From contig JACQXE010000070.1 of NCBI GenBank assembly GCA_016208915.1, forward strand, positions 1 to 37,063: DNA of 37,063 nucleotides, read 5' to 3'. This document shows positions 14,251-33,659 of this stretch, piece by piece (position 1 is the first letter of the stretch; each line of letters starts with the position of its first letter). A model generated the notes under the pieces. It was not told the origin of the DNA. It searched no databases and saw nothing but the letters and a program-made list of their open reading frames with translations. The DNA is from Nitrospirota bacterium. Its GTDB lineage: Bacteria; Nitrospirota; Thermodesulfovibrionia; Thermodesulfovibrionales; UBA1546. The position numbers and the translations under genes were made by a program.

Positions 14251-14286
14251 CGCGTTCTCCAATAATTTGGTTCTTACTCTTTTCAT

Positions 14287-15408
14287 CTACTGCTTTTTGT
14301 CTTCTGACTTCTGTGTGCTTTCCTTGTCTTTATCTTTTGTATCTTCTGTTTTTTGTTTGCTGCTTTCCGTCTCTATTATCTCTATCTTCGCGTTTCTTCT
14401 AAGCTCTGTTTCAAACTCTTTCATCCTTTTTTCCTGGGCAGCCATTCTGAACTTGCCCTCAAGACTTTCTCTCACTTCATCAAGCGAAAGCTGTTTTTCA
14501 GGCGAATATTCCTTGAGTTTTAAGATGTGCAAACTTTCAGATGTTTTTATTACGCCTGAAAGCTCGCCTGTTTTAAGTTTCCTTGCCTCATCGTAAAGCT
14601 CTTTATGCTTATCCTTCTTAATCTCAAGCGTTCTCACTGAAAATGTGCCGTCCAGCACCAGTCTCCATGGGTCCTTATTCTTATCCTCCTGAATCTTTTT
14701 CAGGATAGCCTTTGCCTTTTTAATTGAATCCTTGTCATCTGTCTTAAGGAAAAAGACCACATCCGTGACAATGGCCTTCTCAGGCGTTATATATCTTGAC
14801 TTCTCTTTCTCGTATTCTTTTCTGACCTCATCCTCAGGTATGACAATCTTGTCATTAATCTCTTTTGCAAATATAATCTCAAGGATAAGGCTTTTTCCAA
14901 CCTGCGACTTTAACTCTTCTTCTGTCACCATCTGGTTCTCAAGAAATTTTTTGTAGCTATCTTCGCTGCCAAGATTTATCTTGAGGTTATCCATTGCATT
15001 AGCGACATTCACAGGGTCGGCAGTCACGCCTTCAGCCTTCGCCTTCTGATATGCAAGCTCCTGAAATATAATCCTGTCCAATGCATCTTTTTTTATCGCC
15101 TCTATGTTGCTTAGCAAAGGGTCTCCCTGTTTTCTTCTTGCTGCAATCCTGTTCATTACGTTTATTACAGAATCCATTGTGATATTAACGCCATTCACCT
15201 TTGCAACCACAATCTTTTTCGCCTCTTCCATGCCTTTTTTCATCTTTTCAAGCTCTTCCTGACTTGGTTGTGGTTGCTGTGCGGGCTGTGTTGTCTGCCC
15301 TGTCTCTATTTGAGGCTCTTTTCCAGAATCACCTTTTGGAAAGGCAAAGCTTGTTATACCCACAGCGATGGATAACAAAACCGAGAGAACAACTGTTATG
15401 CATTTCAT
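14287..15408 (-). CDS. SurA/PpiC-type periplasmic peptidyl-prolyl isomerase (copy 1)
   Basis: The protein has a signal peptide (MKCITVVLSVLLSIAVG, cleavage after about SFA), the same Gln/Pro linker, a SurA-like chaperone region and a parvulin-type C-terminal segment (LKTGELSGVIKTSESLHILKLKEYSP). I choose the ATG at 15408 (373 aa) because AAAGGAGATAATT directly precedes it; the longer form from 15453 would bury the signal peptide. It is the first gene of an operon of four with almost no spacing (isomerase, isomerase, NHL, 12-heme cytochrome). DNA of the linker is nearly identical to that of copy 2, which points to recent duplication or gene conversion. Confidence 0.88.
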   Translation of the reverse strand: MKCITVVLSVLLSIAVGITSFAFPKGDSGKEPQIETGQTTQPAQQPQPSQEELEKMKKGMEEAKKIVVAKVNGVNITMDSVINVMNRIAARRKQGDPLLSNIEAIKKDALDRIIFQELAYQKAKAEGVTADPVNVANAMDNLKINLGSEDSYKKFLENQMVTEEELKSQVGKSLILEIIFAKEINDKIVIPEDEVRKEYEKEKSRYITPEKAIVTDVVFFLKTDDKDSIKKAKAILKKIQEDKNKDPWRLVLDGTFSVRTLEIKKDKHKELYDEARKLKTGELSGVIKTSESLHILKLKEYSPEKQLSLDEVRESLEGKFRMAAQEKRMKEFETELRRNAKIEIIETESSKQKTEDTKDKDKESTQKSEDKKQ

Positions 15409-15706
15409 AATTATCTCCTTTTTAAAGTAGTTTTTACATTCTGTGCTCTGCATTCTATATTCCGGACTTTATTTCATTATACTCCTCCATCTTTTAATAT
15501 TTCCTCTACAAATATTCTTCTTCGCTATCTTCTTGCTCCTTCCTCCCTTTTTATACATAGCGACTTAATTTATGTCGCATAAGGCAACCTCTCTGTCATG
15601 CTGGCTTGCCTGCCTGTCCGGTAGGCAGGTCCAGCATCCTTCTTCAAAGAAAGATTCCAGACAAGCTGGAATGACAGATAATTCGGCAATTATTATGACG
15701 TTATGT
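15409..15706. other. Intergenic region with a palindromic repeat
   Basis: This 298-nt gap lies between the barrel gene stop and the isomerase operon. It holds a CTGTCATGCTGG...CCAGC palindrome with an internal CCTGCC...GGCAGG stem and a following ATTCCAG...CTGGAATGACAG arm (about 15595-15683), of the dispersed intergenic repeat type. I found no sigma-54 match here. Whether the isomerase operon has its own promoter or is read through from 19583 is open. Confidence 0.55.
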
Positions 15707-17755
15707 TTAAAACAACTTTTTCTTTACATTCAGATAGACCGTCTCACTTGTTTGCCTTGTCTTTTCTGCAGCAAATTTGCTTTTTGAAATGTTCATATTG
15801 GCGTGCATGGCAATGTCAACATCCCTGAATTTCCACGATAGAATAGAATTTAATGCATATATCTTTGTCGTTGCTAATCCCTGTCTCTGGGCATAAGAAC
15901 CGCCAAGGGCCATGGAAAGCCTTCTGCGTGGAAAAGTTTTCTGTAAGTTTACACCTATGCCTGAGAGGGTATCAGAATAATCTTTGCTTTCTGTCCCTAA
16001 AGAAATCTGAGAATAACTTATCTTTGAATAGTGTATCTTTGCATAGAGATTAGTGTTTGTGTTTATCTCCTTACTGTAAGCAAGTTCAGACCTGTATGCC
16101 TTAGAGGGCCTGATTCTCGACCTGACCTCCTGATATTCCCCTAACAGGGAATAGGGGGCCTTTTTTAATAAAATGCCGATAGTTTGTGTTGTAACATTAT
16201 CGACGCCTCCAGGAATAGCGCCGGATATTAAGGTCTGTTTCGAATTCTGGCGCCTGTAGTAAGGATTGACAATCTTATCTAACAGGCTTAATTCTATCAC
16301 GTAACCAACCTCTGTTGTTTTAAGCTCGAAATCACCTTTTATGGCGCTGTATGTGACTCGAAACTCATAAACATGGCCTGCAATAATTGACACTGACGCA
16401 GGAAAAGGATTTACTGGATCTATGAAAATTTTAAACGTGTTACCAAATGGAACCACAGTGTAATTTGTGCCCTTTTGCAATTCGACTAAGTCGCCTGAAG
16501 GGGCATAAGGCGGTATCGGATCTGGTTTATTCACAGAGACCTTTATCGTACTTTCATCTGCATTCTGCTGGTTTAAGGTGAAAGAGTCGCCTATCTGGGC
16601 CTTGTAAGCCTCGTTTATTGTCGCTGGCGCGCCACTTCGGTCGGTAAACAATTCGTTCAGATTTATCCCAAGCTTTAGTGTGCCGCCTTTTATCGTTTTT
16701 GAATAAAAACTGATAAAGGAACGACCCTTTGCTTTAATATCTCCGCTGGAAGTCCTGGCTGTTACATAGCTCTGTCTGTAACTTGTTGCCAGACTGCGAT
16801 AAAGCTTGTGCGAGATAGTCATGCTGGTGTTATCAATTTTACTGGATACCTTAGTCTCAGGAGATGCTGATGCCGTGATTGTTTTTAGAGTATCCTCATA
16901 ACGGTTATAATCAAGACCCCAATTAAGGTTCCACGGCAGTTCAATATCCAGCCGCTCTCTCCATGAAAGGGTATCATCACGCATAGAGTAGATTTCAGAG
17001 CTTTTCTGCTCTGATCTGTTAAAATTTACTCCGCTGTTGAGCCTGATTTTATTGAACTCCAACTCATTTTCAAGGAAATAATAATCCCTCTTGTTTTTTG
17101 CGTTGTTTGAAGAGGCAGAATCTGAATGCGAAAAGCCTGCTACATTGTGAATGGGATGCCTGAAATAAGTGCTGCTCACCGCATAAGTCTTAGAATCAGT
17201 CGTATAAAGTTTCGTTGTGACAGTATTCAGAATGTAGGTCGCATCCAACAGGATAGGTCTTTTTTTATAGTGAAATGTTGCGCCTTTTATATAACTCACA
17301 GGCTTTATACCTTTTGAAAGCCTTCCATGAGCAAAATAGGTCTTGCGCGAAGTGAAGAGCTCCAGTGTATAGGGATGCTCGGGCAGTATCATTGTCTTGA
17401 ATTCATACTCATTCGCAGTAGTCGTGGACCAGGAATAATCAACGGTGCTGCTCTTAAACTTCTCCTGCTTTAAACCGCCTGATACTTTAGCAAAGAATAA
17501 AATAAATCTCGGGTGATAGACAAACCCTGCTGTGGAGAGACGTATCCTTTCTGTCAAGGCCGTATTTGATGTTTTTATCCCCCTGTTCTGTGACCTGTTT
17601 TCATGGCTCTCATACCTCATTTCTATTTCCAAATCTCCTTCATAGCTGAAAATTCGGGGGATAAAACGCCTCATATCGCCAAAGGCAGCAGAAGGGACTA
17701 TAACAAAAGCCAGGATAAAAATAATGCTTCTCACAATGCCCTTTGTCCCATTCAT
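15707..17755 (-). CDS. Large outer-membrane beta-barrel protein (porin-like)
   Basis: The 682-aa protein has a signal peptide (cleavage after about AAFG, residue 26) followed by a long succession of alternating polar/hydrophobic strands with aromatic belts (for example SYSQISLGTESKDYSDTL, RRLSMALGGSYAQRQG). It ends in VYLNVKKKLF, a C-terminal phenylalanine beta-signal typical of BAM substrates. No heme sites are present. It is the last gene of an operon after a pentaheme lipoprotein and an NHL lipoprotein, so it could be the barrel of a porin-cytochrome conduit, functionally analogous to MtrB. I cannot assign it to a named family. Confidence 0.82.
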   Translation of the reverse strand: MNGTKGIVRSIIFILAFVIVPSAAFGDMRRFIPRIFSYEGDLEIEMRYESHENRSQNRGIKTSNTALTERIRLSTAGFVYHPRFILFFAKVSGGLKQEKFKSSTVDYSWSTTTANEYEFKTMILPEHPYTLELFTSRKTYFAHGRLSKGIKPVSYIKGATFHYKKRPILLDATYILNTVTTKLYTTDSKTYAVSSTYFRHPIHNVAGFSHSDSASSNNAKNKRDYYFLENELEFNKIRLNSGVNFNRSEQKSSEIYSMRDDTLSWRERLDIELPWNLNWGLDYNRYEDTLKTITASASPETKVSSKIDNTSMTISHKLYRSLATSYRQSYVTARTSSGDIKAKGRSFISFYSKTIKGGTLKLGINLNELFTDRSGAPATINEAYKAQIGDSFTLNQQNADESTIKVSVNKPDPIPPYAPSGDLVELQKGTNYTVVPFGNTFKIFIDPVNPFPASVSIIAGHVYEFRVTYSAIKGDFELKTTEVGYVIELSLLDKIVNPYYRRQNSKQTLISGAIPGGVDNVTTQTIGILLKKAPYSLLGEYQEVRSRIRPSKAYRSELAYSKEINTNTNLYAKIHYSKISYSQISLGTESKDYSDTLSGIGVNLQKTFPRRRLSMALGGSYAQRQGLATTKIYALNSILSWKFRDVDIAMHANMNISKSKFAAEKTRQTSETVYLNVKKKLF

Positions 17756-17796
17756 ATAAGCTGTTCCCCTTATCCCTTCTCATAACTAAACACGGT

Positions 17797-18363
17797 CTAT
17801 TTCAATAAAAACTCATTGTCAGACATATGCGCATCATGGCATGTTATGCATACGACATCATTAATTCCCTTATGAACGTCTCGTTTGGACACAGCATTCC
17901 TATCATGGCAGTAAAAACAGAACTCTGTTGCTTCAGAAACCAGGAGGAAGCGGTTGGATGAGGTATGGGGGTCATGGCATACCTTGCACCCCCCTGAGGC
18001 AATGGGGCCATGAAGCCTTTTATCTGTTCTGAATGTATGACAATTAAGGCAAAGAGCTTCAATAGGCATGATTAATTTATTGGAGCCTCTTTGGTGACAG
18101 CCTTCACACAGCCTTGCTGCATAAGGACCATGTTCTATATTCACGGTCTGAGGGATGTTTTTGCCTGATGCTGTTTTAACGGAGCCGGCATCGCCTTTTT
18201 TATGAGATGGCACGCCATCAAACAAAAAGCTTAGGACCTTATACCTCTGCTCAGGGGCGCCGAAGACATTGCCCTCTTTATCCTCGAGCAGATACTCTTT
18301 GGAACATCCGTATGCCAGGGCCATTGCCATAATAAAAACAATTATTAAAGTCCATCTTCCCAT
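17797..18363 (-). CDS. Pentaheme c-type cytochrome lipoprotein
   Basis: The 188-aa protein has a lipoprotein signal peptide with a lipobox-like LAYGC (Cys20). It has five CXXCH motifs: CEGCH, CLNCH, CKVCH, CFYCH and CITCH, several of the doubled type (CHDPH, CHDAH). It is 41 nt upstream of the beta-barrel gene and 32 nt downstream of an NHL lipoprotein gene. A small lipid-anchored multiheme cytochrome next to a barrel is what one expects of the periplasmic or surface partner of an outer-membrane electron conduit. That assignment is inference; the heme sites and lipobox are directly visible. Confidence 0.9.
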   Translation of the reverse strand: MGRWTLIIVFIMAMALAYGCSKEYLLEDKEGNVFGAPEQRYKVLSFLFDGVPSHKKGDAGSVKTASGKNIPQTVNIEHGPYAARLCEGCHQRGSNKLIMPIEALCLNCHTFRTDKRLHGPIASGGCKVCHDPHTSSNRFLLVSEATEFCFYCHDRNAVSKRDVHKGINDVVCITCHDAHMSDNEFLLK

Positions 18364-18395
18364 CTATACTTTTAAGATCGTTTTATTTCCCTGGT

Positions 18396-19583
18396 TCATT
18401 CCTCTGCCTTTTCAGGAGGAGCCTCCTGCTGGAACTTCTTCATTTTCTGAAGAACCTCCTCCTTGAGCGCCTCATCTGTAGGGTATTGCTTTCCTTTTTC
18501 TTTTCCAAAGGCGTATACGTTAACCATCCGGTCGCCAAACTGACTCGTTACCAGGATGAGGGCCTCAACCTCGAATCTCGGGTCCACATACTTCTCAAAG
18601 TATTTAATGTTTTCATAATCTACAATAACCTTTGCAGGAAGGTATAAATCTCCTGGTTTTCTGCCGGCCTTTCCAAAGAACATGAGGAGCCTGCCTTCTT
18701 TATTAAAAACCTGCACATTGTCAAATGCAGCATCCACAACATAAAGCCTGTCTTCCCTGTCTATTGCTATCCCTCTCGGCCTTGCAAAGGTGCTCGGGTT
18801 AGCGCCTAATTTCCCTACGATTCCTTTAAAGTGCCCATCCCTGTCGAATTTCACAATCTGGAATCTGGCGGAATCCGATACATAGAGGTAGCCTTCTTTA
18901 TCAAAGGCCACATTTGTCGGGATAGCGAGGATTCCCTCGGGCTCTTCTTTTTTCTGGCCAATCCTTTTTACGAGATCGCCTGTCTTTTTATCAAGAACCC
19001 TTACCTCTTTATTTTTGGGGTCCGCTACATAAAGTCTGTCTTCATAGACCGCAACGTCAACAGGCTTCCATTCGCCTGCTATTCCAAAGGTCCCTACATA
19101 GAAATCATTCTTGTCAAAGATAACAATCTGTCCCCTGATAGGGTCTGTCACATACTTTATGCCGTCCCTATCAATGGTTATGTTAACCGGCTGAATAAGC
19201 TTTCCGAGACCCTGTGCGCCCAGAAGCTTGCCAAAGGCGCCTTTCTCGAGATCAAAGACCATGAGTGTGTCATTGGTATCGCAGACATAAATCTTTCCAT
19301 TATGGATTGCAAGACCATATGGTTTATCAAGCCTTTTGAACATTTCCTGCCCGCCTGTTACGAACAGTTCAAATGCAGACTTTCCTTCTTCTATGTCTTG
19401 CGAACCTGTGTATGAAGTGAGATATTGTACGCGGGCGAGGTCAGGCGGGGAGGGATAAAATACAGGTTCCATCGGTTTCTTGGGAGGCGCGGCGCATCCT
19501 GTTACTATCAGGGCCAGGGCCATCAATACCACGTAGAGCATTGAATTTTTCACATTATTGTGGCTTCCACTTTTTACGAACAT
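18396..19583 (-). CDS. NHL-repeat beta-propeller lipoprotein
   Basis: The 395-aa protein has a signal peptide with lipobox IVTGC (Cys30) and a Pro-rich linker. It then has a propeller of NHL-like blades (GLAIHNGKIYVCDTNDTLMVFD, GYLYVSDSARFQIVKFD, RPRGIAIDREDRLYVVDAAFDNVQVFN) and a charged C-terminal tail. GAGGTG lies 6 nt before the ATG. It is the first gene of the NHL / pentaheme / barrel operon. A 46-bp inverted repeat (19601-19646) lies just upstream, in the probable leader. It is the second of two NHL lipoproteins in the locus. Confidence 0.9.
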   Translation of the reverse strand: MFVKSGSHNNVKNSMLYVVLMALALIVTGCAAPPKKPMEPVFYPSPPDLARVQYLTSYTGSQDIEEGKSAFELFVTGGQEMFKRLDKPYGLAIHNGKIYVCDTNDTLMVFDLEKGAFGKLLGAQGLGKLIQPVNITIDRDGIKYVTDPIRGQIVIFDKNDFYVGTFGIAGEWKPVDVAVYEDRLYVADPKNKEVRVLDKKTGDLVKRIGQKKEEPEGILAIPTNVAFDKEGYLYVSDSARFQIVKFDRDGHFKGIVGKLGANPSTFARPRGIAIDREDRLYVVDAAFDNVQVFNKEGRLLMFFGKAGRKPGDLYLPAKVIVDYENIKYFEKYVDPRFEVEALILVTSQFGDRMVNVYAFGKEKGKQYPTDEALKEEVLQKMKKFQQEAPPEKAEE

Positions 19584-19600
19584 TTTTACACCTCACATTA

Positions 19601-19646
19601 GATAAAATTTTAGCTTTTATCATAAATTAAAAGCTGAAATTTTATC
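19601..19646. promoter_or_regulatory. 46-bp near-perfect inverted repeat upstream of the NHL operon
   Basis: Two 19-nt arms (19601-19619 and 19628-19646) pair completely with a single G-U, around an 8-nt loop. They lie 18 nt before the NHL lipoprotein start. There is no U-run after it on the minus strand, so it is not an obvious terminator. It could be an operator, an mRNA-stabilising hairpin or part of a repeat element. Confidence 0.6.
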
Positions 19647-19680
19647 AACATCACTCCCTAAAAAGCCGTAAAACCTATCC

Positions 19681-19858
19681 TATGGAGCTTGTCTGAAAAC
19701 TCAGTATTTGTCATCCTCCGGCCCTGGTCGCCTTCGGCGCCACCAGAGGCGGGTAAACTTGACCGGGGGATCCAAAAGGTATTGAAAACACTGGATTCCC
19801 GCCTTCGCGAGAATGACGACTTTATGTGGGAATGGTAGTTTTTTAGACAGGCTCTATG
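19681..19858. repeat. MITE-like element upstream of the NHL operon
   Basis: Imperfect arms (GGAGCTTGTCTGAAAACT near 19684-19701; reverse complement of the right arm near 19838-19856 reads AGAGCCTGTCTAAAAAACT) enclose a GTCATCC...GAATGAC inner pair and several GC-rich hairpins. The right arm runs into the end of the small ORF at 19843-20040. Confidence 0.6.
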
Positions 19859-20040
19859 TCCCCCATATCACTGTTATTGTCTGCCTCGAGCATGCTCATA
19901 TAAATATATTGTATTGCCTGTTCCTGTTCCCAGACCCTTAATGATTTAAACACGCTCGACTGTTGTGCGATTAGGGTTGCTGTTTTAATTGAAAGATCCT
20001 TTTCCATGTTACATATTTCCCAAATCTGCCTCGATGTCAT
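19843..20040 (-). CDS. Small hypothetical protein (doubtful)
   Basis: A 65-aa ORF with no recognisable domain. Residues 12-50 look like ordinary amphipathic helix. The last residues come from the arm of the adjacent repeat element, and the ribosome-binding site is poor. An alternative start is the ATG at residue 12. It might be a remnant of a larger gene or a small regulator; I cannot say. Confidence 0.3.
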   Translation of the reverse strand: MTSRQIWEICNMEKDLSIKTATLIAQQSSVFKSLRVWEQEQAIQYIYMSMLEADNNSDMGDIEPV

Positions 20041-20133
20041 AACCTTATCTTAATCTTACCTAAAGTCAAGCAAACTTCATGCCAGAGATGAGTTAATTAG
20101 CTTCTTATATACGAAACAATGCAACTACGGGTC

Positions 20134-20169
20134 AAAAAAAAGAGGGAATGGATTCCATTCCCTCTTTTT
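20134..20169 (-). terminator. Strong (bidirectional) terminator after the tetraheme cytochrome
   Basis: A perfect 10-bp stem GAGGGAATGG/CCATTCCCTC (20142-20151, 20155-20164) with a 3-nt loop is followed on the minus strand by eight T (20134-20141). On the plus strand it is followed by five T, so it can act both ways. Confidence 0.9.
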
Positions 20170-20188
20170 AGCGCTTGATATTACTATA

Positions 20189-20962
20189 TTACTGGTTCTT
20201 TCCTAAATGGCATGCCAGACAGAGTCCGCTCTGAGCTTCAGTTGTCCACAGGAATTTTTCGCCTGTGTTCTTTGAGTTGTGAACATCATGGCATGTTGAG
20301 CACTCCATTGAATCTGCTCCAACTGAGCCATTGTACCACAGAAGCTGGCCAATTGTGTATGCGCCGAGAGATGAGGTTGTTGGCTCTATCTCGTCATCTG
20401 AGGCCTGAGCTGCAGCATAGTCAAACCCTATTGGATGGTGGTTTGTAAGGTCTCCATTGTAGCCGATGACATTGCAATTAGTAGCAACAAATGTTTTGTC
20501 AGCTGCTCCTTTGGAGGTTGGGCATGTTTGTGCTGTTCCATATGCATTAGTAGCAACGGTAGCATCGTGGCAGCTCAAGCAAAGCTTTGATATACCACCT
20601 GGCTCAACAGCATTAGCCTCTGCATATGATGCATGGTTTGCATCAGATGGCTCCTCAGAACCATTTGAATACATTGTCCATGATGTGGTGGTAGTAAGAG
20701 CATGGTTCCAGAGAGGCACATAATTTACACCCACTGTAGCTGCATCTGCTGGTTTGATTGTGTGATGCGGTGCATGGCAATAAATACATATTCTGTTAAG
20801 TCCTGCTTGCTCAGCAGTATCACCCCATAAAACGCCTCCGCCAAGTGAGCTGAGGTCATGCGGTGTTCCACCGATACCAGATCCAGGGGCAGTTCCTGCC
20901 ATAACAGCAGAAGCCATCAAGACTATCCCCAGTGTCAGAAATAATACAAATAACTTTCTCAT
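20189..20962 (-). CDS. Secreted tetraheme c-type cytochrome
   Basis: The protein has a clear signal peptide (RKLFVLFLTLGIVLMASAVMA) and four CXXCH sites: CIYCH, CLSCH, CSTCH and CLACH, with doubled-CXXCH context (CHAPHH, CHDVH). Extra cysteines occur at TCPTSKG and NCNVIG. I start it at the ATG at 20962 (257 aa), because the in-frame ATG at 20974 is itself part of the GGAGG ribosome-binding site for 20962. It is monocistronic, with a sigma-54-type promoter at 21093-21108 and a strong terminator. The isolated, apparently strongly expressed arrangement is what one would expect of an abundant structural or shuttle cytochrome. Its size and heme number are similar to the tetraheme filament cytochrome OmcE, but homology is not established here. 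Confidence 0.92.
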   Translation of the reverse strand: MRKLFVLFLTLGIVLMASAVMAGTAPGSGIGGTPHDLSSLGGGVLWGDTAEQAGLNRICIYCHAPHHTIKPADAATVGVNYVPLWNHALTTTTSWTMYSNGSEEPSDANHASYAEANAVEPGGISKLCLSCHDATVATNAYGTAQTCPTSKGAADKTFVATNCNVIGYNGDLTNHHPIGFDYAAAQASDDEIEPTTSSLGAYTIGQLLWYNGSVGADSMECSTCHDVHNSKNTGEKFLWTTEAQSGLCLACHLGKNQ

Positions 20963-21092
20963 TTTTTCCTCCATATTGTTGTGAATCTTTGTTCTTTGTC
21001 AATGACAAAGAATCTCTTCCTTTTGCTCTTCTCCGGAACCCCCGTACCTCGAAGAGCCAAGTCATAATAGCAGGTAAACTTATCTGTTTAGA

Positions 21093-22673: not shown

Positions 22674-25600
22674 ATGAACAAGCGTTTATGGCTTATAGCA
22701 GTACTTTCTGCTATATTGCTCCTTGCCGGTTTTTCAGTGGCAATGGCGGTCCATCCAACCGTAAATGTGTTAAAGGCAGACGGCACAGCAGCCGGCACAA
22801 CAGAAGCCTACAGCCCGAAGAACACATGCGGTGGTTGCCATTTTAACTGTTCAACAGGGGCATATAGCACAACAACTTCTGAGTGGTGCCAAGATTACAC
22901 CACAAAGAAGAACTGCGCATCAGTTGCATGCCCTGACTATGCATCAGTAGCTACAGATACTGTTACACATAATCAGGGATATGGAAATTCTGACGGCAAA
23001 ACAGCTTTTCAGGACTGGACAGCAACTTCACCTGCGCACGGCGTATCAGTTGGAAAACACAGCCAGCAGGGAAGGAATGAAGAATTCACATCATCAATGA
23101 GACAGATCTGGGGCGCACCCGGATTTGCAAGCTCACCAGGCATGTGGGGAAGATATTGACCACCGTCTAACCGTCAGTTGGCGGTAAAAGACATAATAAC
23201 AGGACCTTCCGGAACAGAAACAATAATGGACGCTGCAAAAAGGCAGATAGAGACATCCCCTATGGCATGGGCAACACAGTGCGGTGTTTGCCATGTTGGT
23301 GGCGGAGCGCTCGAACACGACAGAGACATGCTGCCTTATGGACAAGCAGGCGCAAACAATGAGGGTGACAGATATACATATCTTGGTAACCGCATTGTAG
23401 GCGGCGCTGTTACAGCAGGAGGCATTGTTGAGCTTACAGCTCCTCAAACCACACAGCTTTTTGCTGACAACAATGTTGAGGTTGACTGTATGATGTGTCA
23501 TGCAAACACGCTCCAGACAGGAGCAGCATGGTACAAGTCCATTGGTTGCAGCGATACCAACATGGTAGGCCCTGCTGATAACCCGAACTGCGATAGTACG
23601 AACGATGCAACCGGTCAGCCAGATTCAAGATTTACTTGGGTTAACGGCTCCTATGACTCCTTCAACAGGAATGCTGCTGTGTCAGCAGGCTGGTTTAAGC
23701 AGGCAGCATCAGCAGGTATTGGAGCAGCAATTACCCTTTCAGATGGTTCACTCAGCGGAACACCTGCAACCATTCCTGCGTCAGTAATCGCATATGCGCC
23801 TAACAGCGCAAACTGCGCTATCTGCCATGCAAGGAATGAGAATGATACCATTGGACTTCCGGGCGAGGCTCAGATGTACGGCGGCATGATTGTTGGTTTT
23901 GGAAACTACTTCAGGATGACACCTGCCGGCAATGCATTTGATTTTGACGAGATTAATACAGACGGAACCTCTTGCGGAGACGACTGCAAAAACAACACGC
24001 AGTGGAACGAATTCGGCTGTAAAACAGGCATGGGCAAGAGAGCTCAGAAAACAGGATACGGCTCATCAGACAGATTCGGCTTTGGAATCTGCTTTGGCTG
24101 CGCAATGTTCAGCGCTATGAACGGCGGGCCAATGGCATGGTGGGTAGGTATGGACGGAATCGAATACACTGCTGATGACGGCGTATGCGCGCTTCCGAGC
24201 GTCCGCGCATCATGTAATACAAAGGCCGGCGCTGACATTGTGGCTAATCCAATGAACATCTATGATGGTATGGGCTATCCAAAACAGATAGCCGGCAAGA
24301 TGCCTGATGTTGATGTTCATGACATGGTCACATCACCTGACAAGGATATCAAGTGCGGAACATGCCACTATGCAGTTTCCGGAACAACAGCGGCAAAGAC
24401 AATATCAGCAACAGTAGGCGGAACCGCATATACCTACACTTATGCGTCAAAGTCAATCGAGAAGATTGACCATATGATAGCACAGGGTTACAGCACACTT
24501 GAGAAGGCAAATGACTATCTCGACGGCACAGTAACATGCGAAGGCTGCCACAGTTCAACTGGAACACATCCAAACAAGGCAGCATTGAATCCTCCTGACC
24601 CTGACATAGCAGGAGGAGGGCATGTTAACATCCCTGCGCTTCACTTTGAGAAGATAGACTGCAGAACATGCCACATCCCTTCAGTATATGCAGCTCCTGG
24701 AAGGCTGTTACTCAGAGACTGGTCAGCAGGCGCATACAGACAGGCTGACGGAAGCAATGGAAATGCAAACCATTTTGATTTTGCATACAATTTTATGGAC
24801 GGCGGCGCAGTAACAATGCCTACTCTCAGGGCTTGGATAAAAACACCTGAGGGCACAAAGATAGCTCCTATTCTGCCTTCCACTCTCACAGTATGGACAG
24901 GTTCAGCAGTAAGGGCGTCTGATGACTTTGTTCTCGGCTGGTCTCCTGCAAAAACAAGAGACATCACTGCAGCAGCAGCAATTGTTTCTGCAAACAACTC
25001 AGGCTTTGGAATCAGGATTAACGGCACAAACGAACATCCTCCGTTCGAGGGATTCCAGCTTGCAGACCCGATTAAGATTGACTCTGCGGCAAAGATTGGC
25101 GCAATGGTCACAGAGCTTGGCGCAGCAAGGGCCACTGGCTATGCAAACCATGCAAAGGTCGGCAATGCAAGACTGAATATCTTCCCGACATTGTTTGACC
25201 CGTCACACGGCGTTACACCAAAGGCCTTTGCCCTTGGTTCACCTTCAAGTGGCGGCTGCATAATGTGCCATTCAAGCTCTAACACGGCTGACGCAACATA
25301 CAGCTCAAAATCAGTCGGATTCTTCGACAGCAAAAAAGAACTGCTGAAGAACGGTATGGTTCAGATGGCTGATTATGACTGCGGCGGCGGTGACATGGAT
25401 TATGAAACAGGCGGATGGCTCAACGCGGATCATCCTGACTGGTACTGCGGTATGTTCGACCCTCTAGCAATGGGCGGCGATAATGACGGCACATGCGATA
25501 CCTCTGAAGTAATGGCTTGCAGAGGCTATGTCGCAAGCAATCTGTATCCTCAGTTTGGAATGCCTGCTGATATCCCAATGCTGGTGGACGGCATATCCAT

Positions 25601-26711
25601 GATGCAGATGATGGCAATTAGAGAAGGCGCATTCGGATTCCCGTCTCAGGGCAAATGCGATCCTCGTTATTCATTCTTTGGATTCGGAAACGGCCCGGAC
25701 ACGAGCCGTGGTGATGATGGCTATAACAATGGCTGCTATCCACAGCTCGGCGACTACTACAGCCGCGATGAGATAAGGGCGCATTACAAGAAGAACATGC
25801 AGCAGGTTAAATTCCAGCCTGCAGGCCTGCCCTCAGGCGCACAGTGGGTAAACCCGATTACAAACGTAACCGGCGCAGTTCCCACAACAATGGGCAGAGT
25901 ATTCGGCATAGTAAAAGTTGCACAGCACCCGAGCAACGCAGCGCACGCTAATATTTTTGATCTTGGCGCAAGTTGCAAAGACCCGTCGACCGGCGCAACA
26001 ATTGCATGCGGTGATGCTCCAAGCCCGAGCAATCCAAACTATGTACAAACAACAGTCACCGCTAACCAGCTCCTCGGTTATACAGCAAGCATGCTGTCAT
26101 ATCTCGAAGACTACTATAGCCTTGGGTCACTGGTTCACCCTGTAGCATCATTCTCATGGGGTTCAGACGGTACAACCAGTCTGAAGGTGAACTTCAATGC
26201 CTCAGGCTCTACATGTAACACCGGTAGTACATGCACATATACATGGAAGACATGCACTACAAAAGATGACCCAGCTACTCCTGCGATTGAGTGTGGCACT
26301 GAGGTTGCCATGACAGCAGGTATAACCACTTCATACACGTATACAGCCGGCGGAGCAGGCATCTACAAAGCGACTTTAACAGTAACAGACACCACCTATG
26401 GGCTTATCTCAAGCACAAGCAAGCAGGTTCAGGCAAAGGTTATTAACACAGCTCCAGTTGCAGCCAAGACATCACCTGTTGTAGCAGGAAAGTTAGTAAC
26501 GTATACTGACTCCTCTTCAGATGCACAGGATGCACAGGCTAGCCTGAAGGTAACCACAACCTGGGGTGACGGCGCAACAACAGTAGGCGTTGGCGGCGCT
26601 CTCCAATCTCACACATATCTCCGTGGAGGTATATACACCATCAGACATAAGGTAACAGACACTGGCGGACTCTCCAAATTCTCTGCTAATGTCACAGTTA
26701 CTGTTAACTAA
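22674..26711 (+). CDS. Putative selenocysteine-containing octaheme cytochrome with PKD domains (copy 1)
   Basis: I annotate one 1345-aa protein, reading the in-frame TGA at 23157-23159 as residue 162 (selenocysteine). Residues 1-25 are a signal peptide ending AMA. Heme motif 1 (CGGCH) is at 52-56; after U162 come CGVCH (203-207), CMMCH, CAICH, CGTCH, CEGCH, CRTCH and CIMCH, giving eight CXXCH. A CFGCA lacks the histidine. The last roughly 195 residues are two PKD-like beta-sandwich domains. Without read-through, the first piece is a 161-aa monoheme stub. The second piece would start at a TTG with no ribosome-binding site and no signal peptide, so it could not be exported for heme attachment. 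GGAG lies 8 nt before the ATG. Paralogue: 26985-30059. The decoding is inferred; the heme sites are seen. Confidence 0.85.
23157..23184 (+). promoter_or_regulatory. In-frame UGA with SECIS-like hairpin (copy 1)
   Basis: UGA (23157-23159), an 11-nt spacer, then the hairpin CCGUC-AGUU-GGCGG (23171-23184, five pairs including one U-G, loop AGUU). Bacterial SECIS elements lie just 3' of the UGA inside the coding sequence and have a short stem with a G/U-containing apical loop; the 11-nt spacing equals that of E. coli fdhF as I recall it. An alternative pairing ACCGUC/GGCGGU with a bulged U is also possible. Confidence 0.72.
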
Positions 26712-26984: not shown

Positions 26985-29900
26985 ATGAAAAAAGGAAAAT
27001 TTTTAGTGTTGTTTCTTCTGATTGCAGCAGGGATTTTTTGGCTTGTAAAAAATGCGCATGCCACACACGACAATGTCTTTTTGCAGGCAGCTGACGGCGC
27101 GTACATAAGAAGGTACAGCAATGTCCCTTACAGCCCCAAGATGACATGCAGTACTAATGGCTGTCACGATCCTTATGCAGTTATAATGTGGGGTCTGGCA
27201 ACCCCTAATGTGTATGAAAGCGAGGTAGGTTATGCAACAAAGGATCAGGGCGGGGTTGCCTATACTGTTCCTTATGCCCTGCACGGAGTGTCTGCAGGCT
27301 ATCACTTCCAGCAGGGAAGAAACATCTCGTGGGGAGACGCCCAGAAAAACTATTATAATGACCCTTCTTTTACAAGCTCAGGAGGAATGTATGGCAGGTA
27401 CTGACCTCCGTCTAACCGCCAGTTGGCGGATTTGACAGAGAGCAATCCCAATAATTTTGATATGAGCAGTTATGATTTTGCCCATTCAGAGTGTGGATAC
27501 TGTCATCCGGGCGGCGGCTCTATGGAGTATGACAGGGCGGGATACCGATATGATGGGATGGGGAGTGAAATCGTTCCGGGCTATGACCCATTCAACCCTT
27601 TTGCCACTCTATTCAACCCAAACCGCAACAGCGCCTACGGTGACTATTTCACATTCGACCCTGCTACAGGCGCCATAGTCGACAAGGCAATGGATTGGGA
27701 GAATGGCGGTGTTGCTGAGGTAGACTGCCTTATGTGCCACTACGCAAAACAATACTCCCTTTTAGAGAGGAACTGGGCTATCTCTGAGTCAAAAATGCCC
27801 TCGTGGGCTCCGTCCCTCGGTCTGGTGGGCTCAGGGGTATTGAACATAGCCCAGAAAGGCGCGCCAGGGGTTAATCCGAATATTTCTCGGACTGGGTGGT
27901 CGTGGACCGGACTTAAGATAGGCTCATATACTTATGCATATGCCGGAATAAACGGGTTAGATATAGTAAAAACCCCTCAACCGGCAAACTGTGCCAACTG
28001 CCACTTTGGAGACAATAGCTTAGTGCCCAAGGTTGAACTTGGTCAGACATGCACGACAAATCCTTCACTCTGCGGTCCTGCCGGCGTATCCCTCGGGCTC
28101 ACTGTATTTCAGAAGTACCTTGCTCCCGGCACAGTTGTGGACGGCGATAAGGTGGGAGCCGGCACAAATGATTCTGCATGGTATGTTGTCAAAGACAGGG
28201 TTGAGCTTGCAAAAAGAGGCGAGTCCTTTAATGCCCCTTATGATCCTACGGATCCGAATAATACAAAAGGGCGTCTGGTTAATCCTGATATCCATCTGGA
28301 CAAGGGGATGAAATGCGCTGAATGCCATTATGCCCTTGGCGGTGAAGTTGATCCTGATACAGGCGAACCTGCCCCTGTGAGATATCCTGCCCTTACAGAC
28401 AGCTTAGGCAATGTTATTCAGCCGGCAATAGATGTATTTAAGGTTGATCACCAGTTCGCAAAAGGCAATGACGTCCCTGATGGCAGAAATATGGACCAGT
28501 TCGATAACACACTGACCTGTGAAAGCTGTCATACAACAATGACACATCAGAATTTAAGATACAATGCCAGTTATGGGGTGTATTATATGGTGCAATATGA
28601 TTCTTCTTGGAATGAGATGCCTTACGACCCGCTTACAAGCAGGGTTTCGATGGTAGCAACACACAGTGGTTTTCCAGTTTTTCATTTTACCGTGATTGAT
28701 TGCAGAACTTGTCATTCGCCTGAATACAATTCTGTTGAAAAAGACATTCTTCGCGACTTTACTGGCGGGCTATACAAGGGCGCTGAAAGAGTACAGGTTA
28801 TTTCTAATCCTTTAGGCATTCACTATAAACCATTGTATATATGGCGTGCAAAAAATCATAATGACCCAACCATAATGATACTTCCTTCCTCAGTTCTGGT
28901 GGTGGCAAGCTGGATAAGAGACGGCGACCCTGATAAACCTGTTTATCAGAGGACAGCTCAAAAGGCTGCTGAGGATTACAGGGCGCAAATAGGCGATGCA
29001 AACCTTGACGGCATCTATGATTGGACGCTTAACAGACCACAGAGCGGAGACACAACCCTGATAGTTAATACCCCGGCTGAAATACAGGGCATGGTCCAAC
29101 AACTAATTGCCAATGGCGTTTCAGACCCTGTTATGAATCTCTATGTGAATGTCATGAACGTAAGCCGCAATGTTGCGCCCAAGGCAAACAACAAGATATT
29201 AGGTTCATCAGCGAGCGGCGGGTGTGTGATGTGTCATTCAAGCTCTGACCCATTATCACCAAACTACACCCCCAGATCCGTTGGCTTCTTCAATAAGACA
29301 TTTACGCTCTTTAATCAGCCAAACAGCGGTCTTATGCAGACTGACCTGGGAGATGGAATAAAGAGGGTTAATCTGAAACTCCAGTACACAAAAGCAGATC
29401 GTTCATCAGCTATTATTGACCTTTCAAACAATGCCGGTGAAGTTGTTGGGAACACCATTAATCAGGGCACAGTTTTTGGCTTTACTCCAGCAAGGCTTGC
29501 AGGACTTCAGGATCCTGCAACAGCAGGTATAGTAAAGCCTGTGGCGTCATTCTCATGGGGTTCAGATACCATAACCAGCCTGAAGGTAAACTTCAATGCA
29601 TCACTGTCCACATGCGGAAGCGGCAACTGCACATATTTATGGGACTTCACAACCGACGGCACATATGACGCAACAGGCAAAACAACCAGCAAAATATACG
29701 GCGCAGCAGGCTACTACAATGCAACCTTGAAAGTGACAGACAATACATACGAATTCAGCTCTACGACGACAAAAACAGTTCAGGCAAAGGTTATTAACGC
29801 GCCTCCGACAGCAGTCAAGACTGTCACTACCTCAGGGCTGACAGCAACACTCGTTGACAGCTCTTACGATGCCATAGATCCACAGTCTGCCCTCGTGGTG

Positions 29901-30059
29901 ACCATAACCTGGGGTGATGGCGCAACAGACCAAATCGCCGGCGGTGCCAGTAAAACTCACACATACCTCCGTGGAGGTATATACACCATCAGGCATAAGG
30001 TAACAGACACCGGAGGACTCTACTCATTCTCTCCTAACGTTACGGTTAATGTTAAATAG
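26985..30059 (+). CDS. Putative selenocysteine-containing octaheme cytochrome with PKD domains (copy 2)
   Basis: One 1024-aa protein if the in-frame TGA at 27402-27404 is read as residue 140 (selenocysteine). It has a signal peptide (1-26, ending NAHA). Heme site 1 is non-canonical: CSTNGCH (CX4CH, 55-61). After U140 come CGYCH, CLMCH, CANCH, CAECH, CESCH, CRTCH and CVMCH, in the same order as in copy 1. The C-terminus has two PKD-like domains, the last nearly identical to that of copy 1 (TYLRGGIYTIRHKVTDTGGL). The context HGVSxGxHxQQGRN ... GMYGRY-U-PPSNRQLA is shared with copy 1. GGAGG lies 5 nt before the ATG. The gene lies after a terminator, so it has its own promoter, which I could not locate. 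It is shorter than copy 1 by about 320 residues, mainly in the middle. Confidence 0.85.
27402..27429 (+). promoter_or_regulatory. In-frame UGA with SECIS-like hairpin (copy 2)
   Basis: UGA (27402-27404), an 11-nt spacer, then the hairpin CCGCC-AGUU-GGCGG (27416-27429), five Watson-Crick pairs. Compared with copy 1 the stem has C-G instead of U-G, a synonymous (CGU to CGC) pairing-preserving change. The only other change between UGA and the hairpin end is also synonymous (CCA to CCT). Confidence 0.75.
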
Positions 30060-30176: not shown

Positions 30177-30232
30177 ACAAACACTATAAACAAAGGTAAA
30201 AATGTTAAGACCGGGCAACACTGTTGGAAATG

Positions 30233-31015
30233 ATGAAAAAGATTTATATTTGCTTGCTTTGTTTATGCGCCTTTTTATTTATGCTCTCAGCATTGTTATT
30301 CTCGCAGGACGTTATGGAACTTCCTGTTTCGCCTCCCGCAGAAATATATGGGGATGTATTTATAGACAGATCATCTATAGCTAATAAGGTTATTCCGATA
30401 GTCTTTTCACATTGGGTTCATAGAGTCAAATACACATGCAGGGTCTGCCACTATGAGCTTGAGTTCTCGCTAAGCGCTGGTGAGACGCCTATTTTATGTG
30501 AGAGTGGAACAATAAGTGATAGACACTGTACTGCATGCCACAATGGCAAGATTTCATTCGGACCGATAGGCGAAGATGGAGAAAAAAATTGTGACAAATG
30601 CCATAATGCAGATACGAGCCCGAACACTGAAAAATTTTTTGAACTTCAAGGGAAATTGCCAAAAGCCAAGTTTGGAAATAAGATTGACTGGACAAAGGCC
30701 TTTAATGACGGACGGATAAAGCCAAAGAATAGTCTATTAGAAAACTTTAAGCCTAGCTCTCTGATTATCAAACGTACTCTTACGCTGAGGGCAGAGATGT
30801 CAGGAATCTCTTCTGCCGTTTACCCACACAAAACACATGAAGATTGGATGGACTGTTCAACTTGTCACCCTGATATTTTCAATATCAAAAAGAAAACAAC
30901 GGAGAGTCTTTCCAAGGCGAGCATGTTAAAAGGCAAATCCTGTGGCGTCTGCCATCTCCGCATCGCCTTCCCGTTGAATGATTGTAAACGATGCCACCCA
31001 AAAATGAGGATGTAA
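30233..31015 (+). CDS. Hexaheme cytochrome, two c7-like triheme units (A)
   Basis: The 260-aa exported protein has an N-terminal hydrophobic signal (MKKIYICLLCLCAFLFML) and six CXXCH sites: CRVCH, CTACH, CDKCH in the first half, then CSTCH, CGVCH, CKRCH. Each half begins with a conserved FSHWVHR / YPHKTH histidine pair that supplies axial ligands, as in cytochrome c7-type triheme domains. I start it at 30233 because the paralogue A' (32877-33659) then has the same length and N-terminus; ATG at 30230 and TTG at 30224 are alternatives. It is the first of four tandem paralogues. Likely role: periplasmic or extracellular electron shuttle. Confidence 0.9.
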   Translation: MKKIYICLLCLCAFLFMLSALLFSQDVMELPVSPPAEIYGDVFIDRSSIANKVIPIVFSHWVHRVKYTCRVCHYELEFSLSAGETPILCESGTISDRHCTACHNGKISFGPIGEDGEKNCDKCHNADTSPNTEKFFELQGKLPKAKFGNKIDWTKAFNDGRIKPKNSLLENFKPSSLIIKRTLTLRAEMSGISSAVYPHKTHEDWMDCSTCHPDIFNIKKKTTESLSKASMLKGKSCGVCHLRIAFPLNDCKRCHPKMRM

Positions 31016-31037
31016 AAACAAACTTAAAATATATTTT

Positions 31038-31053
31038 AGGCATAAAAGTTGCA
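31038..31053 (+). promoter_or_regulatory. Sigma-54-like promoter for hexaheme B
   Basis: AGGCATAAAAGTTGCA keeps the invariant GG and GC 12 nt apart and the GTTGCA -12 box, but the -24 box is weaker (AGGCAT). It lies about 96 nt before the chosen start of hexaheme B. Confidence 0.6.
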
Positions 31054-31149
31054 TAGTTTAGCATATAAATGATTAATCGGTTGTATATAAAATGCAAACA
31101 AAGCGCTGCAGGGATATCCCTATTCAGCAAGGCAAAAGCAAACCGAAAC

Positions 31150-31947
31150 ATGCAAAGAACACTCTGGCTTTTGTCAGTAACTATCGCGGTTTTAATCGCG
31201 TCATCCGTTGCCTTTGCTCAGACAAAGGGCATGATGAAGAAAAGATCTTTGCCGCAAGATTACGGCAATATTGTAATTAACAGCCTCTCGGAGAAAAACG
31301 GTATGGCGCCTGTTGTCTTCAAACACTGGCTTCACAGGACAAGATATACATGCAGGGTATGCCATGTGGATTTTGGATTCGCAATGATAGCTGGCAAAAC
31401 AGCAATGAAGGAAGCTGGCAACGAGGGTCATTACTGTAGCTCATGCCACAACGGCAAAGAGGCATTTGCCCCTGTGGCAAAAAACCCTTCAGGAGAAGAT
31501 ACGGTAAACTGTGACAGGTGTCACTCTTATGGTAAGTATGTCAAGTTTGAGTTTGACTTTTATAAATTTACAGCAAAGTTTCCAAGAGAAAGCTTTGGAG
31601 ACGGAATTAATTGGGAAAAGGCAGAAAATGAAGGGATAATAAAACTTCAGGATGAGGTCCCAGCTTCAACAACTAAGAAAGAGCCTCTGGAGGGCCCAGC
31701 TGATTTCACTGCTGGGTCTGACGCCTTGGGGCTCCCTGCCAGTGTTTTTTCTCATAAAAAGCATATTGTAGGGATAAGCTGCGAGCTATGCCACAATGAT
31801 ATATTTGACTATGAAAAAGGAATCACAAAATATTCAATGGATGATATATTTGATGGGAAATATTGCGGGCGATGTCATGGAAAGGTTGCTTTTTCAAATG
31901 ATGATTGCCTGCGTTGCCATAGGATTTCGGCGCAGGCTGTAAAATAA
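31150..31947 (+). CDS. Hexaheme cytochrome, two c7-like triheme units (B)
   Basis: The 265-aa protein has a signal peptide (MQRTLWLLSVTIAVLIASSVAFA) and six CXXCH sites (CRVCH, CSSCH, CDRCH; CELCH, CGRCH, CLRCH), with FKHWLHR and FSHKKH ligand motifs opening the two halves. The ATG at 31150 is chosen because it gives the same N-terminus as its neighbour B' (31998-32789); a longer form from 31069 would hide the signal peptide. DNA of the signal peptide is nearly identical to that of B', so the duplication is recent or maintained by conversion. A 50-nt gap separates it from B' with no terminator. Confidence 0.9.
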   Translation: MQRTLWLLSVTIAVLIASSVAFAQTKGMMKKRSLPQDYGNIVINSLSEKNGMAPVVFKHWLHRTRYTCRVCHVDFGFAMIAGKTAMKEAGNEGHYCSSCHNGKEAFAPVAKNPSGEDTVNCDRCHSYGKYVKFEFDFYKFTAKFPRESFGDGINWEKAENEGIIKLQDEVPASTTKKEPLEGPADFTAGSDALGLPASVFSHKKHIVGISCELCHNDIFDYEKGITKYSMDDIFDGKYCGRCHGKVAFSNDDCLRCHRISAQAVK

Positions 31948-31997
31948 CTTGATGCGTAATTTCATATGACGTATCCAGTAATTTATTTAGGGGAGAC

Positions 31998-32789
31998 ATG
32001 AAAAAGACAATCTGGCTTTTGTCAGTAACTATCGTGGTTTTAATTGCATTATCCATCGCCTTTGCTCAGGCAAAAGGCGTGAAAAGGAAAAGAGTTTCAG
32101 CGCAAGATTACGGCAATGTTGTAATAAATAATTTTTCAGAGAAAAACAACGTTGCGCCTGTTGTCTTCAAACACTGGCTTCACAGGACAAAATACACATG
32201 CAGGGTCTGCCATGTGGATATAGGCTTCAGCATGAAAGCCGCTGAAACTGGGGTGCGATGTGACGATATCAAAAAAGGTTTCTACTGCGGCTCGTGCCAT
32301 CATGAGGATAAGGATTCCTTTCCGCCTCTTGAAAAAAAGGGTTTCAGCGGAGAGATAAAAAACTGTGACAGGTGTCATTCTTATGGTAAAAATGTCAAGT
32401 TTGAGAACGAATTTAATAAAATTACAGCAAAGTTTCCAAGGGAACGCTTTGGTAATGGGATTGATTGGGAAAAGGCAGAAAATGAAGGGATAATAAAACT
32501 TAAGAATGAAATCCAAGGGATAACGATTAAGAGAAAGCCTTTGGAAAACCAGAAGGACTTCGGTATTGAGTCTAAAATTACAGGTATTCCTGCCATCATC
32601 TATTCTCATAAAAAACACACTGTATGGAACGGCTGTGAGGTGTGTCACCCTGATATATTTAGCGCTAAGAAAGGAAAAACACAGTATTCAATGGAGGATA
32701 TATTTGATGGAAAATTCTGTGGGCAATGTCATGGAATTGTTGCATTCCCCAATGACGATTGTCAGCGATGTCATACAGAACAGGTATGA
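31998..32789 (+). CDS. Hexaheme cytochrome, two c7-like triheme units (B')
   Basis: The 263-aa protein has a signal peptide (MKKTIWLLSVTIVVLIALSIAFA) and six CXXCH sites (CRVCH, CGSCH, CDRCH; CEVCH, CGQCH, CQRCH). The FKHWLHR and YSHKKH motifs open the halves. GGGGAG lies 2 nt before the ATG. It is closest to B, and the second half of each contains the shared segment MxDIFDGKxCGxCHG. It ends with TGA as a normal stop. No terminator separates it from A'. Confidence 0.92.
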   Translation: MKKTIWLLSVTIVVLIALSIAFAQAKGVKRKRVSAQDYGNVVINNFSEKNNVAPVVFKHWLHRTKYTCRVCHVDIGFSMKAAETGVRCDDIKKGFYCGSCHHEDKDSFPPLEKKGFSGEIKNCDRCHSYGKNVKFENEFNKITAKFPRERFGNGIDWEKAENEGIIKLKNEIQGITIKRKPLENQKDFGIESKITGIPAIIYSHKKHTVWNGCEVCHPDIFSAKKGKTQYSMEDIFDGKFCGQCHGIVAFPNDDCQRCHTEQV

Positions 32790-32876
32790 ACGAGAAAGTA
32801 CGCGGTATTAGTATTATATTGCGTGTGCAATTACGATTGAATAATAAAAATAGTTATGCTAAGATTGGATAACAAA

Positions 32877-33659
32877 ATGAAAAAAATTTATATCTGTTTG
32901 TTTTGTTTTTGCATCTTCTTATCTATTCTGTATGGATTATCATTTTCTCAGGGTGGTCTTCAGCTTCCTGTTTTGAGTTCTCCTGAAGAATACGGTGATA
33001 TCTTTATAGACAGGGTTTCGACAAAAAATAAGGTTACCCCTGTAGTTTTTTCCCACTGGATTCACAGGGTCAAATACACGTGCAGGGTCTGTCACGACGA
33101 GCTTGAGATTGCCATGAAGTCTTCAGAGACAGAGATATTGTGCGGAAAAGGGGAGGCAAAAGGGGAAAGGCACTGTGTCAAATGCCATAATGGCAAAGAA
33201 TCATTTGCGTTTGCGCCAAAAGATGCAGAAGGAGAAAATTGCAAACGGTGTCATAATGCAGATTCAAGCCCTAACAGGCAAAAGTTTTTTGAACTTCAAG
33301 GGAAACTGCCCCGCAGTAAGTTTGGGAATGAGATAGATTGGGGAAAGGCCCTGAACGATGGTTTAATAAAGCCTAAGGACAGTCTTTCTGATAAAACCCG
33401 AACTATCGTTCATGATAAAATCCTTACACTGAAGGCTGAGATGTCTGGGATCTCCCCTGCTGTCTTTCCGCACAAGACGCATGAGCAATGGTTAGACTGC
33501 GCCAATTGCCATCCTGAAATATTCAATATAAAAAAGAAGACAACCAAAAACTTAAAAATGGCGAACATGCTTAAGGGTGAGGCCTGTGCTATTTGCCACC
33601 TCAGGGTTGCCTTTCCTCTGAATGATTGCAAGCGCTGCCACCCGAAGATGAGGGGGTAG
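32877..33659 (+). CDS. Hexaheme cytochrome, two c7-like triheme units (A')
   Basis: The 260-aa protein has an N-terminal export signal (MKKIYICLFCFCIFLSIL) and six CXXCH sites (CRVCH, CVKCH, CKRCH; CANCH, CAICH, CKRCH). FSHWIHR and FPHKTH open the halves. The start at 32877 has GGA 7 nt upstream, and makes it exactly as long as paralogue A. It shares with A the segment KFFELQGKLPxxKFGN and the C-terminus NDCKRCHPKMR. It is the last of the A-B-B'-A' array and is convergent with the PilZ gene at 33663 with only 3 nt between them. Confidence 0.92.
   Translation: MKKIYICLFCFCIFLSILYGLSFSQGGLQLPVLSSPEEYGDIFIDRVSTKNKVTPVVFSHWIHRVKYTCRVCHDELEIAMKSSETEILCGKGEAKGERHCVKCHNGKESFAFAPKDAEGENCKRCHNADSSPNRQKFFELQGKLPRSKFGNEIDWGKALNDGLIKPKDSLSDKTRTIVHDKILTLKAEMSGISPAVFPHKTHEQWLDCANCHPEIFNIKKKTTKNLKMANMLKGEACAICHLRVAFPLNDCKRCHPKMRG

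Follow-up and report, generated by a model that had tools for sequence, protein, structure and literature searches.

A predicted selenocysteine at an in-frame UGA codon in exported octaheme cytochromes of Nitrospirota

We analysed a stretch of 37,063 nucleotides from a Nitrospirota bacterium (assembly GCA_016208915.1, contig JACQXE010000070.1, positions 1 to 37,063, forward strand; hereafter the window). It encodes an exported octaheme c-type cytochrome with a C-terminal PKD domain (gene A) and, as the next gene, a paralogous octaheme cytochrome with two PKD stretches (gene B), each interrupted by an in-frame UGA codon (Table 1). The UGA of gene A is very probably read as selenocysteine (Sec) within one exported protein, which is the best explanation of the evidence as a whole.

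The frame of gene A runs from ATG 22674 to TAA 26709-26711 with TGA 23157-23159 as its sole interruption, and the first in-frame start candidate after this codon, TTG 23178, lies six codons on. The read-through protein begins with a signal peptide and contains eight CxxCH heme-attachment motifs (residues 52, 203, 272, 381, 561, 622, 663 and 862), one before the TGA and seven after it; a ribosome-binding site, AAAGGAG, precedes the ATG. These results confirm a preliminary description of the locus, in which two open reading frames (ORFs; 22674-23159 and 23178-26711) were seen to share one frame, split by a TGA plus six codons, with the signal peptide and heme 1 on one side and hemes 2-8 and PKD on the other. 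Gene B, whose split was absent from that description, has the same heme order and is divided in the same way, by TGA and six codons followed by an in-frame TTG that the ORF finder took as a start. The split is more than chance: on the forward strand of the window, a TGA is flanked on both sides by over 90 open codons at three places only, namely at 23157, at 27402 and at 13214, the last of which is antisense to predicted genes.

The source genome is a metagenome-type draft of 2.5 Mb in 88 contigs, 98.8% complete. As the preliminary description had proposed to check, we looked in it for selA, selB, selC and selD, and all are present. Two other genes of this genome, encoding FdhA and SelD, carry an in-frame UGA of their own, and a small hairpin stands downstream of it with its loop beginning about 16-18 nt on, as in the cytochrome genes; the FdhA hairpin (GCC-AGUCU-GGC) is close to that of the cytochromes (GCC-AGUU-GGC). 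FdhA and SelD differ from the products of genes A and B in being cytoplasmic or molybdo-enzymes rather than cytochromes.

Table 1 Predicted features of the window, with the selenocysteine machinery encoded on other contigs (C) of the source genome
Feature	Position	Strand	Basis or remark
Gene A, exported octaheme c-type cytochrome, C-terminal PKD domain	22674..26711	+	1345 aa with UGA read through
Heme 1 of gene A, CGGCH	22827..22841	+	Motif
In-frame UGA of gene A, predicted Sec162, between hemes 1 and 2	23157..23159	+	Conserved UGA/Cys column
Candidate SECIS hairpin of gene A, CCGUC-AGUU-GGCGG (stem 23171-23175/23180-23184, loop 23176-23179)	23171..23184	+	Conserved hairpin
Heme 2 of gene A, CGVCH then GGG..E-D-R, proposed catalytic heme	23280..23294	+	Role from octaheme tetrathionate reductase likeness
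Lys455 (GKR) of gene A, counterpart of 1SP3 Lys153	24036..24038	+	Alignment
PKD domain of gene A, residues 1258-1344	26445..26705	+	PF18911, 39 bits against cut-off 27
Gene B, paralogous octaheme cytochrome, two PKD stretches	26985..30059	+	1024 aa with UGA read through
In-frame UGA of gene B, predicted Sec140	27402..27404	+	Aligned UGA column
Candidate SECIS hairpin of gene B, CCGCC-AGUU-GGCGG	27416..27429	+	Conserved hairpin
Tandem array of four c7-type cytochromes with six hemes each (in two triheme domains), candidate electron partners	30224..33659	+	TIGR04257
Divergent conserved cluster beside gene A	10221..20974	-	12-heme, NHL propeller, two PPIase-type, 682-aa, 5-heme, NHL propeller, 4-heme
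tRNA-Sec (selC)	C7:22412-22505		69.6 bits
SelB	C18:23252-25108		394 bits
SelA	C34:64743-66095		630 bits
SelD	C18:13866-14783		Own in-frame UGA
FdhA	C59:16175-18235		In-frame UGA; hairpin GCC-AGUCU-GGC

Conservation of the UGA codon and of a downstream hairpin

To survey for relatives, we searched 396 genomes of the phylum and then 230 genomes of the class; few carry the family. A UGA occupies one shared alignment column in ten genes from seven Nitrospirota genomes, which represent six genera, four families and two classes: genes A and B in G000, G268 and G040, gene A in G041, G024 and G053, and gene B in G194 (G000 is the source genome of the window and the other G-labels are genomes of relatives). 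The count includes G194 gene B, in which an apparent frameshift lies upstream of the UGA and its hairpin, and leaves out a partial match in G401, where a TGA in a frame-damaged contig end is off the Sec site. Genes A and B are adjacent in G000, G041 and G053. The UGA stands in the context SPGM-x-G-[RK]-[YF]-U-PPSNRQLA, with SSGGM at the start in gene B of the window. A contig scan gave two family loci only, from a groundwater Nitrospirae metagenome-assembled genome and from a Nitrospiria bacterium from Hainich, both already found by the genome searches, and the viral contigs and plasmids searched held no relatives.

Three family members have Cys at the Sec column, namely G084 gene A (SPGMFGRYCMPSNRQL), G053 gene B (CPPSDRQL) and G041 gene B (CLSSLRQL). 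Cys is also present in G063 gene B, on a contig broken by Ns, and is aligned to the same column in three distant cytochromes (L061-L063; E 5.7e-49). Among the family homologues and L061-L063 we saw nothing other than UGA or Cys at this position, whereas the preliminary description had named unrelated residues there as a refutation. The Cys forms are scattered among the Sec forms in the family tree, so the exchange of Sec and Cys happened more than once.

In G268, genes A and B (L011 and L020) run into two different contig ends with one and the same additional multiheme tail (...CTSCHSAGALNGLERHDGAVPSTDNASCIECHGSKTLDLSGMAL), which suggests that the assembly broke at a repeated cytochrome module.

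Directly 3' of the UGA, all ten UGA genes read UGACCNCCNUCNAACCG[CU]CAGUUGGCGG. This sequence holds a common hairpin, CCG[CU]C-AGUU-GGCGG, with a 5-bp stem and a 4-nt loop that starts 16 nt past the UGA and has G at its second position, followed by U. The model for a bacterial selenocysteine insertion sequence (SECIS) has a loop of 3-9 nt, a stem of 4-16 bp and a G in the first two loop positions, at 16-37 nt from the UGA (PMC13188914); comparing these criteria directly, rather than via bSECISearch, we found that the hairpin of the ten genes falls within them.

We then asked how far this conservation exceeds that of the protein. The ten UGA genes share 88 invariant residues, 32 of them with 4- or 6-fold degenerate codons. 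One and the same codon is used in at least nine of the ten genes at only three of these 32 columns, R167 (CGC), L169 (TTG) and A170 (GCG), all inside the hairpin; codon choice at P163, P164 and S165, which separate it from the UGA, varies freely. TTG is a minor Leu codon in the UGA genes (6-15%). This codon test is the strongest evidence for a SECIS element, for which the preliminary description had proposed a search; a bacterial-type hairpin does sit right after the UGA.

The hairpin is gone in the Cys genes G053 B and G041 B. In the third Cys form, G084 gene A (L013), it has decayed: ACCGCCAGUUGG is kept, so that the 5' arm and loop persist, including the minor Leu codon TTG, and the remaining 3' arm is lost. 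This remnant looks like, and apparently is, a fossil of a change from Sec to Cys.

Taken together, the UGA/Cys conservation, the hairpin and the machinery support the proposal of the preliminary description that the UGA encodes Sec at residue 162; none of the refuting outcomes it had listed at the level of sequence came about.

Relation to known cytochromes

None of the NCBIfam models claims gene A or gene B. Among known families, we detected a likeness to the octaheme tetrathionate reductase (OTR) family (TIGR04315; 1SP3, from Shewanella), whose eight hemes follow one another in the same order. In OTR a single conserved Cys lies between the first two hemes, at the place of Sec/Cys here, a Lys-Arg/His motif is conserved between hemes 4 and 5 as in our family, and the profiles are detectably similar. 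A weak, partial TIGR04315 match occurs in 12 of 14 family members (best E 2.5e-9, 37 bits), and a profile comparison of the family with 13 genuine TIGR04315 proteins of the phylum gave a probability of 98% (E 6.6e-14). Genes A and B differ from OTR in having the predicted Sec for Cys, in being two to three times longer and in carrying PKD domains. The genuine TIGR04315 members of the phylum (25 genomes above the cut-off) contain no internal stop.

Apart from those of the eight hemes, a single Cys is invariant in the alignment of genuine TIGR04315 proteins; it lies in the motif NNFC between hemes 1 and 2. Along the printed match to 1SP3, this Cys counts as residue 64 and the conserved Lys in the motif VKHGD as residue 153. 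When the stretch from heme 1 to heme 3 is aligned, the Sec column falls on the lone OTR Cys, and in the stretch from heme 4 to heme 5, K455 of gene A falls on OTR Lys153. Both columns, Sec/Cys and Lys, are invariant in a joint alignment of 28 proteins comprising Sec genes, Cys genes and OTR-like proteins. The earlier suggestion that residue 162 is redox-active near hemes 1 and 2 thus gains support from its alignment with the lone OTR Cys. If the roles of Lys and Cys64 carry over, Sec162 would belong to the active site, and the protein would be a distant member of the octaheme reductase superfamily, much enlarged.

The distant cytochromes L061-L063 come from three relatives in the same taxonomic order and are homologous from heme 1 to heme 7, with a partial TIGR04315 match (7e-13); they differ from genes A and B in being shorter and without PKD, and L061 has a hydrophobic segment at its end. 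Two OTR-like proteins, L102 (G190) and L103 (G308), have lost the lone Cys between hemes 1 and 2, with NYSF or NYTF in place of NxFC.

Known Sec enzymes mostly have a thioredoxin fold or are molybdenum/tungsten or NiFe enzymes. The preliminary description, which thought Sec in a multiheme cytochrome unusual, had left open whether one was known; such proteins have been predicted before (ExtKL and one octaheme protein), and the idea is not new. ExtKL of Geobacter (GSU2937-GSU2936, NF040886) is a pentaheme cytochrome with a predicted Sec (PMC1914089, PMC5877670, PMC6148476), proposed in 2007 without a recognisable SECIS element or Cys homologues (PMC1914089) and later linked to selenite reduction and growth on Fe(III) (PMC5877670). 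A 2026 inventory contains ExtKL and one GenBank-annotated Sec protein of the OTR family, WP_331457571.1, two cytochromes among 119 families (PMC13188914). ExtKL resembles gene A as an exported multiheme cytochrome that is split by an in-frame UGA and encoded in an electron-transfer gene cluster, but it has five hemes, all before the Sec, whereas genes A and B have eight, with the Sec after the first, and NF040886 gave no match to either gene at E up to 10. Neither TIGR04315 nor NF040886 matches genes A and B at its cut-off, and the two genes form a distinct, larger family. To the earlier predictions this family adds tandem Sec genes, natural Cys counterparts, a clear SECIS element with codon conservation and a specific active-site hypothesis. 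We found no description of it in the literature searched, which mostly lacked subscription papers and preprints.

Alternative readings

Among the alternatives, the one that survives best accepts Sec and denies it catalysis. Sec162 could be inserted and yet be structural or a simple axial heme ligand, with the protein acting as an electron carrier or wire rather than as an enzyme. Gene A does sit in an electron-transfer cluster, and His/Cys heme ligation occurs in other cytochromes (TsdA, PMC5146829). What argues for an enzyme is that OTR-type enzymes share both conserved residues, the lone Cys/Sec and the Lys. Sec is, moreover, costly and usually catalytic, and we consider the wire a possible but rather unlikely account.

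A number of points nevertheless weigh against, or limit, the case for Sec and for a Sec-dependent reductase. TIGR04315 scores are far under the cut-off of 375 bits (P0002 18 bits, P0001 no match), and the profile match between OTR and the family is local, covering hemes 5-7 only. The equivalences of Sec with Cys64 and of K455 with Lys153 come from multiple alignments that span large insertions, and the roles borrowed for them are those that Mowat et al. reportedly described in 2004, with Lys as the distal ligand of catalytic heme 2 and Cys64 near it. AlphaFold models of the heme core are of low confidence (predicted local distance difference test, pLDDT, 37 for A and 49 for B). A fold search with the low-confidence gene B model gave no meaningful match; in sequence searches of the PDB, full-length profiles matched PKD domains only and the heme part gave chance matches only. 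As to the hairpin, folding z-scores are -3.0 and -3.5 for the two in the window and only -0.2 to -1.7 in the five other Sec genes folded, so the case for a SECIS element rests on sequence and codon conservation. Lastly, tRNA-Sec was found in all eight family-bearing genomes tested besides G000, and also in 130 of 158 good genomes of the class; being so common, its presence in family genomes is a consistency check only. A second tRNA-Sec match above the family cut-off occurs in G040 (C110:2178-2292) and in several other class genomes.

Readings that deny Sec altogether fare far worse. It is very improbable that the UGA is a true stop and the downstream part a separate gene starting at TTG 23178, as the two ORFs of automatic calling would have it; a comparable doubt was voiced over ExtKL in 2007 (PMC1914089). 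The gap between UGA and TTG codes for PPSNRQ, which all Sec genes conserve at the protein level and which the Cys genes, uninterrupted in frame, mostly keep. As the preliminary description had observed, there is no ribosome-binding site upstream of the TTG, the bases there being codons of the conserved PPSNRQ, and no signal peptide in the part of gene A downstream of the UGA, whereas hemes 2-8 require export.

Still less credible is ordinary read-through or suppression of the UGA, for example as Trp. Substitutions at the site are to Cys and never to Trp or Arg, the hairpin is conserved at codon level and the full Sec machinery is present. TGA is also a normal stop that terminates at least eight other genes of the window and hence is not recoded genome-wide, in line with what the preliminary description had noted for two of them. 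The least tenable reading is a stop that arose by chance, in a pseudogene or through a sequencing error, as is conceivable in a metagenome-type draft of 88 contigs. It is refuted by UGA conservation: the TGA recurs in ten genes, two of them in the window, from seven genomes that were assembled independently, and the frames are otherwise intact.

Proposed function and gene neighbourhood

Returning to Sec insertion as the favoured reading, positions 22674-26711 would be a single gene in which ribosomes insert Sec at UGA 23157, directed, as its conservation implies, by the downstream hairpin through SelB and tRNA-Sec. The product would be exported and then fitted with eight c-type hemes. Sec162 would occupy the place of the single conserved non-heme Cys of OTR, between hemes 1 and 2, and would probably form an active site with K455 at heme 2. 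Electrons would reach heme 2 via the other hemes and there reduce a substrate; the most plausible one is a compound or oxyanion that contains sulfur or selenium, a guess drawn from the OTR resemblance alone. Gene B would, by our best model, encode another such enzyme.

The PKD tail suggests display outside the cell. A further protein of the source genome without heme motifs in the frame read (L018, C37:6672-7238) is 71% identical to residues 1140-1344 of the gene A PKD tail, possibly as a shared surface-anchoring module; PKD tails and this identity fit cell-surface display.

The divergent cluster beside gene A also adjoins a family gene in G053, G084, G040 and G194. Its 682-aa protein has a weak porin match (OmpO family, E 0.005) and may be an outer-membrane barrel or porin, a weak guess that counts among the soft points of the proposal. 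The combination of cytochromes, NHL propellers, peptidyl-prolyl isomerases (PPIases) and a putative porin suggests that gene A works with an outer-membrane electron conduit. Downstream of gene B, the four six-heme c7-type cytochromes are paralogues of one another. On our analysis, gene A most likely encodes a terminal Sec-dependent reductase, extracellular or at the outer membrane, fed by the neighbouring conduit.

More broadly, we lean, by a modest degree, towards the view that these genes represent a family not described before: very large Sec-dependent octaheme reductases of Nitrospirota, displayed at the cell surface and encoded in tandem pairs, in which Sec replaces an active-site Cys beside a Lys-ligated catalytic heme. 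If true, selenium chemistry would operate directly at an extracellular active site built on a c-type heme, with Sec acting beside an eight-heme chain in an exported protein. The equivalence with the Cys64/Lys153 site of an octaheme reductase of known crystal structure allows the role of the chalcogen to be tested, as Sec against Cys at one position. Automatic annotation halves these genes, and inventories of cytochromes in electron-transferring Nitrospirota therefore overlook or misjudge them.

Within the divergent cluster, the two PPIase-type proteins (13054-14286 and 14287-15453) both match one same place in each relative and thus look like a local duplication.

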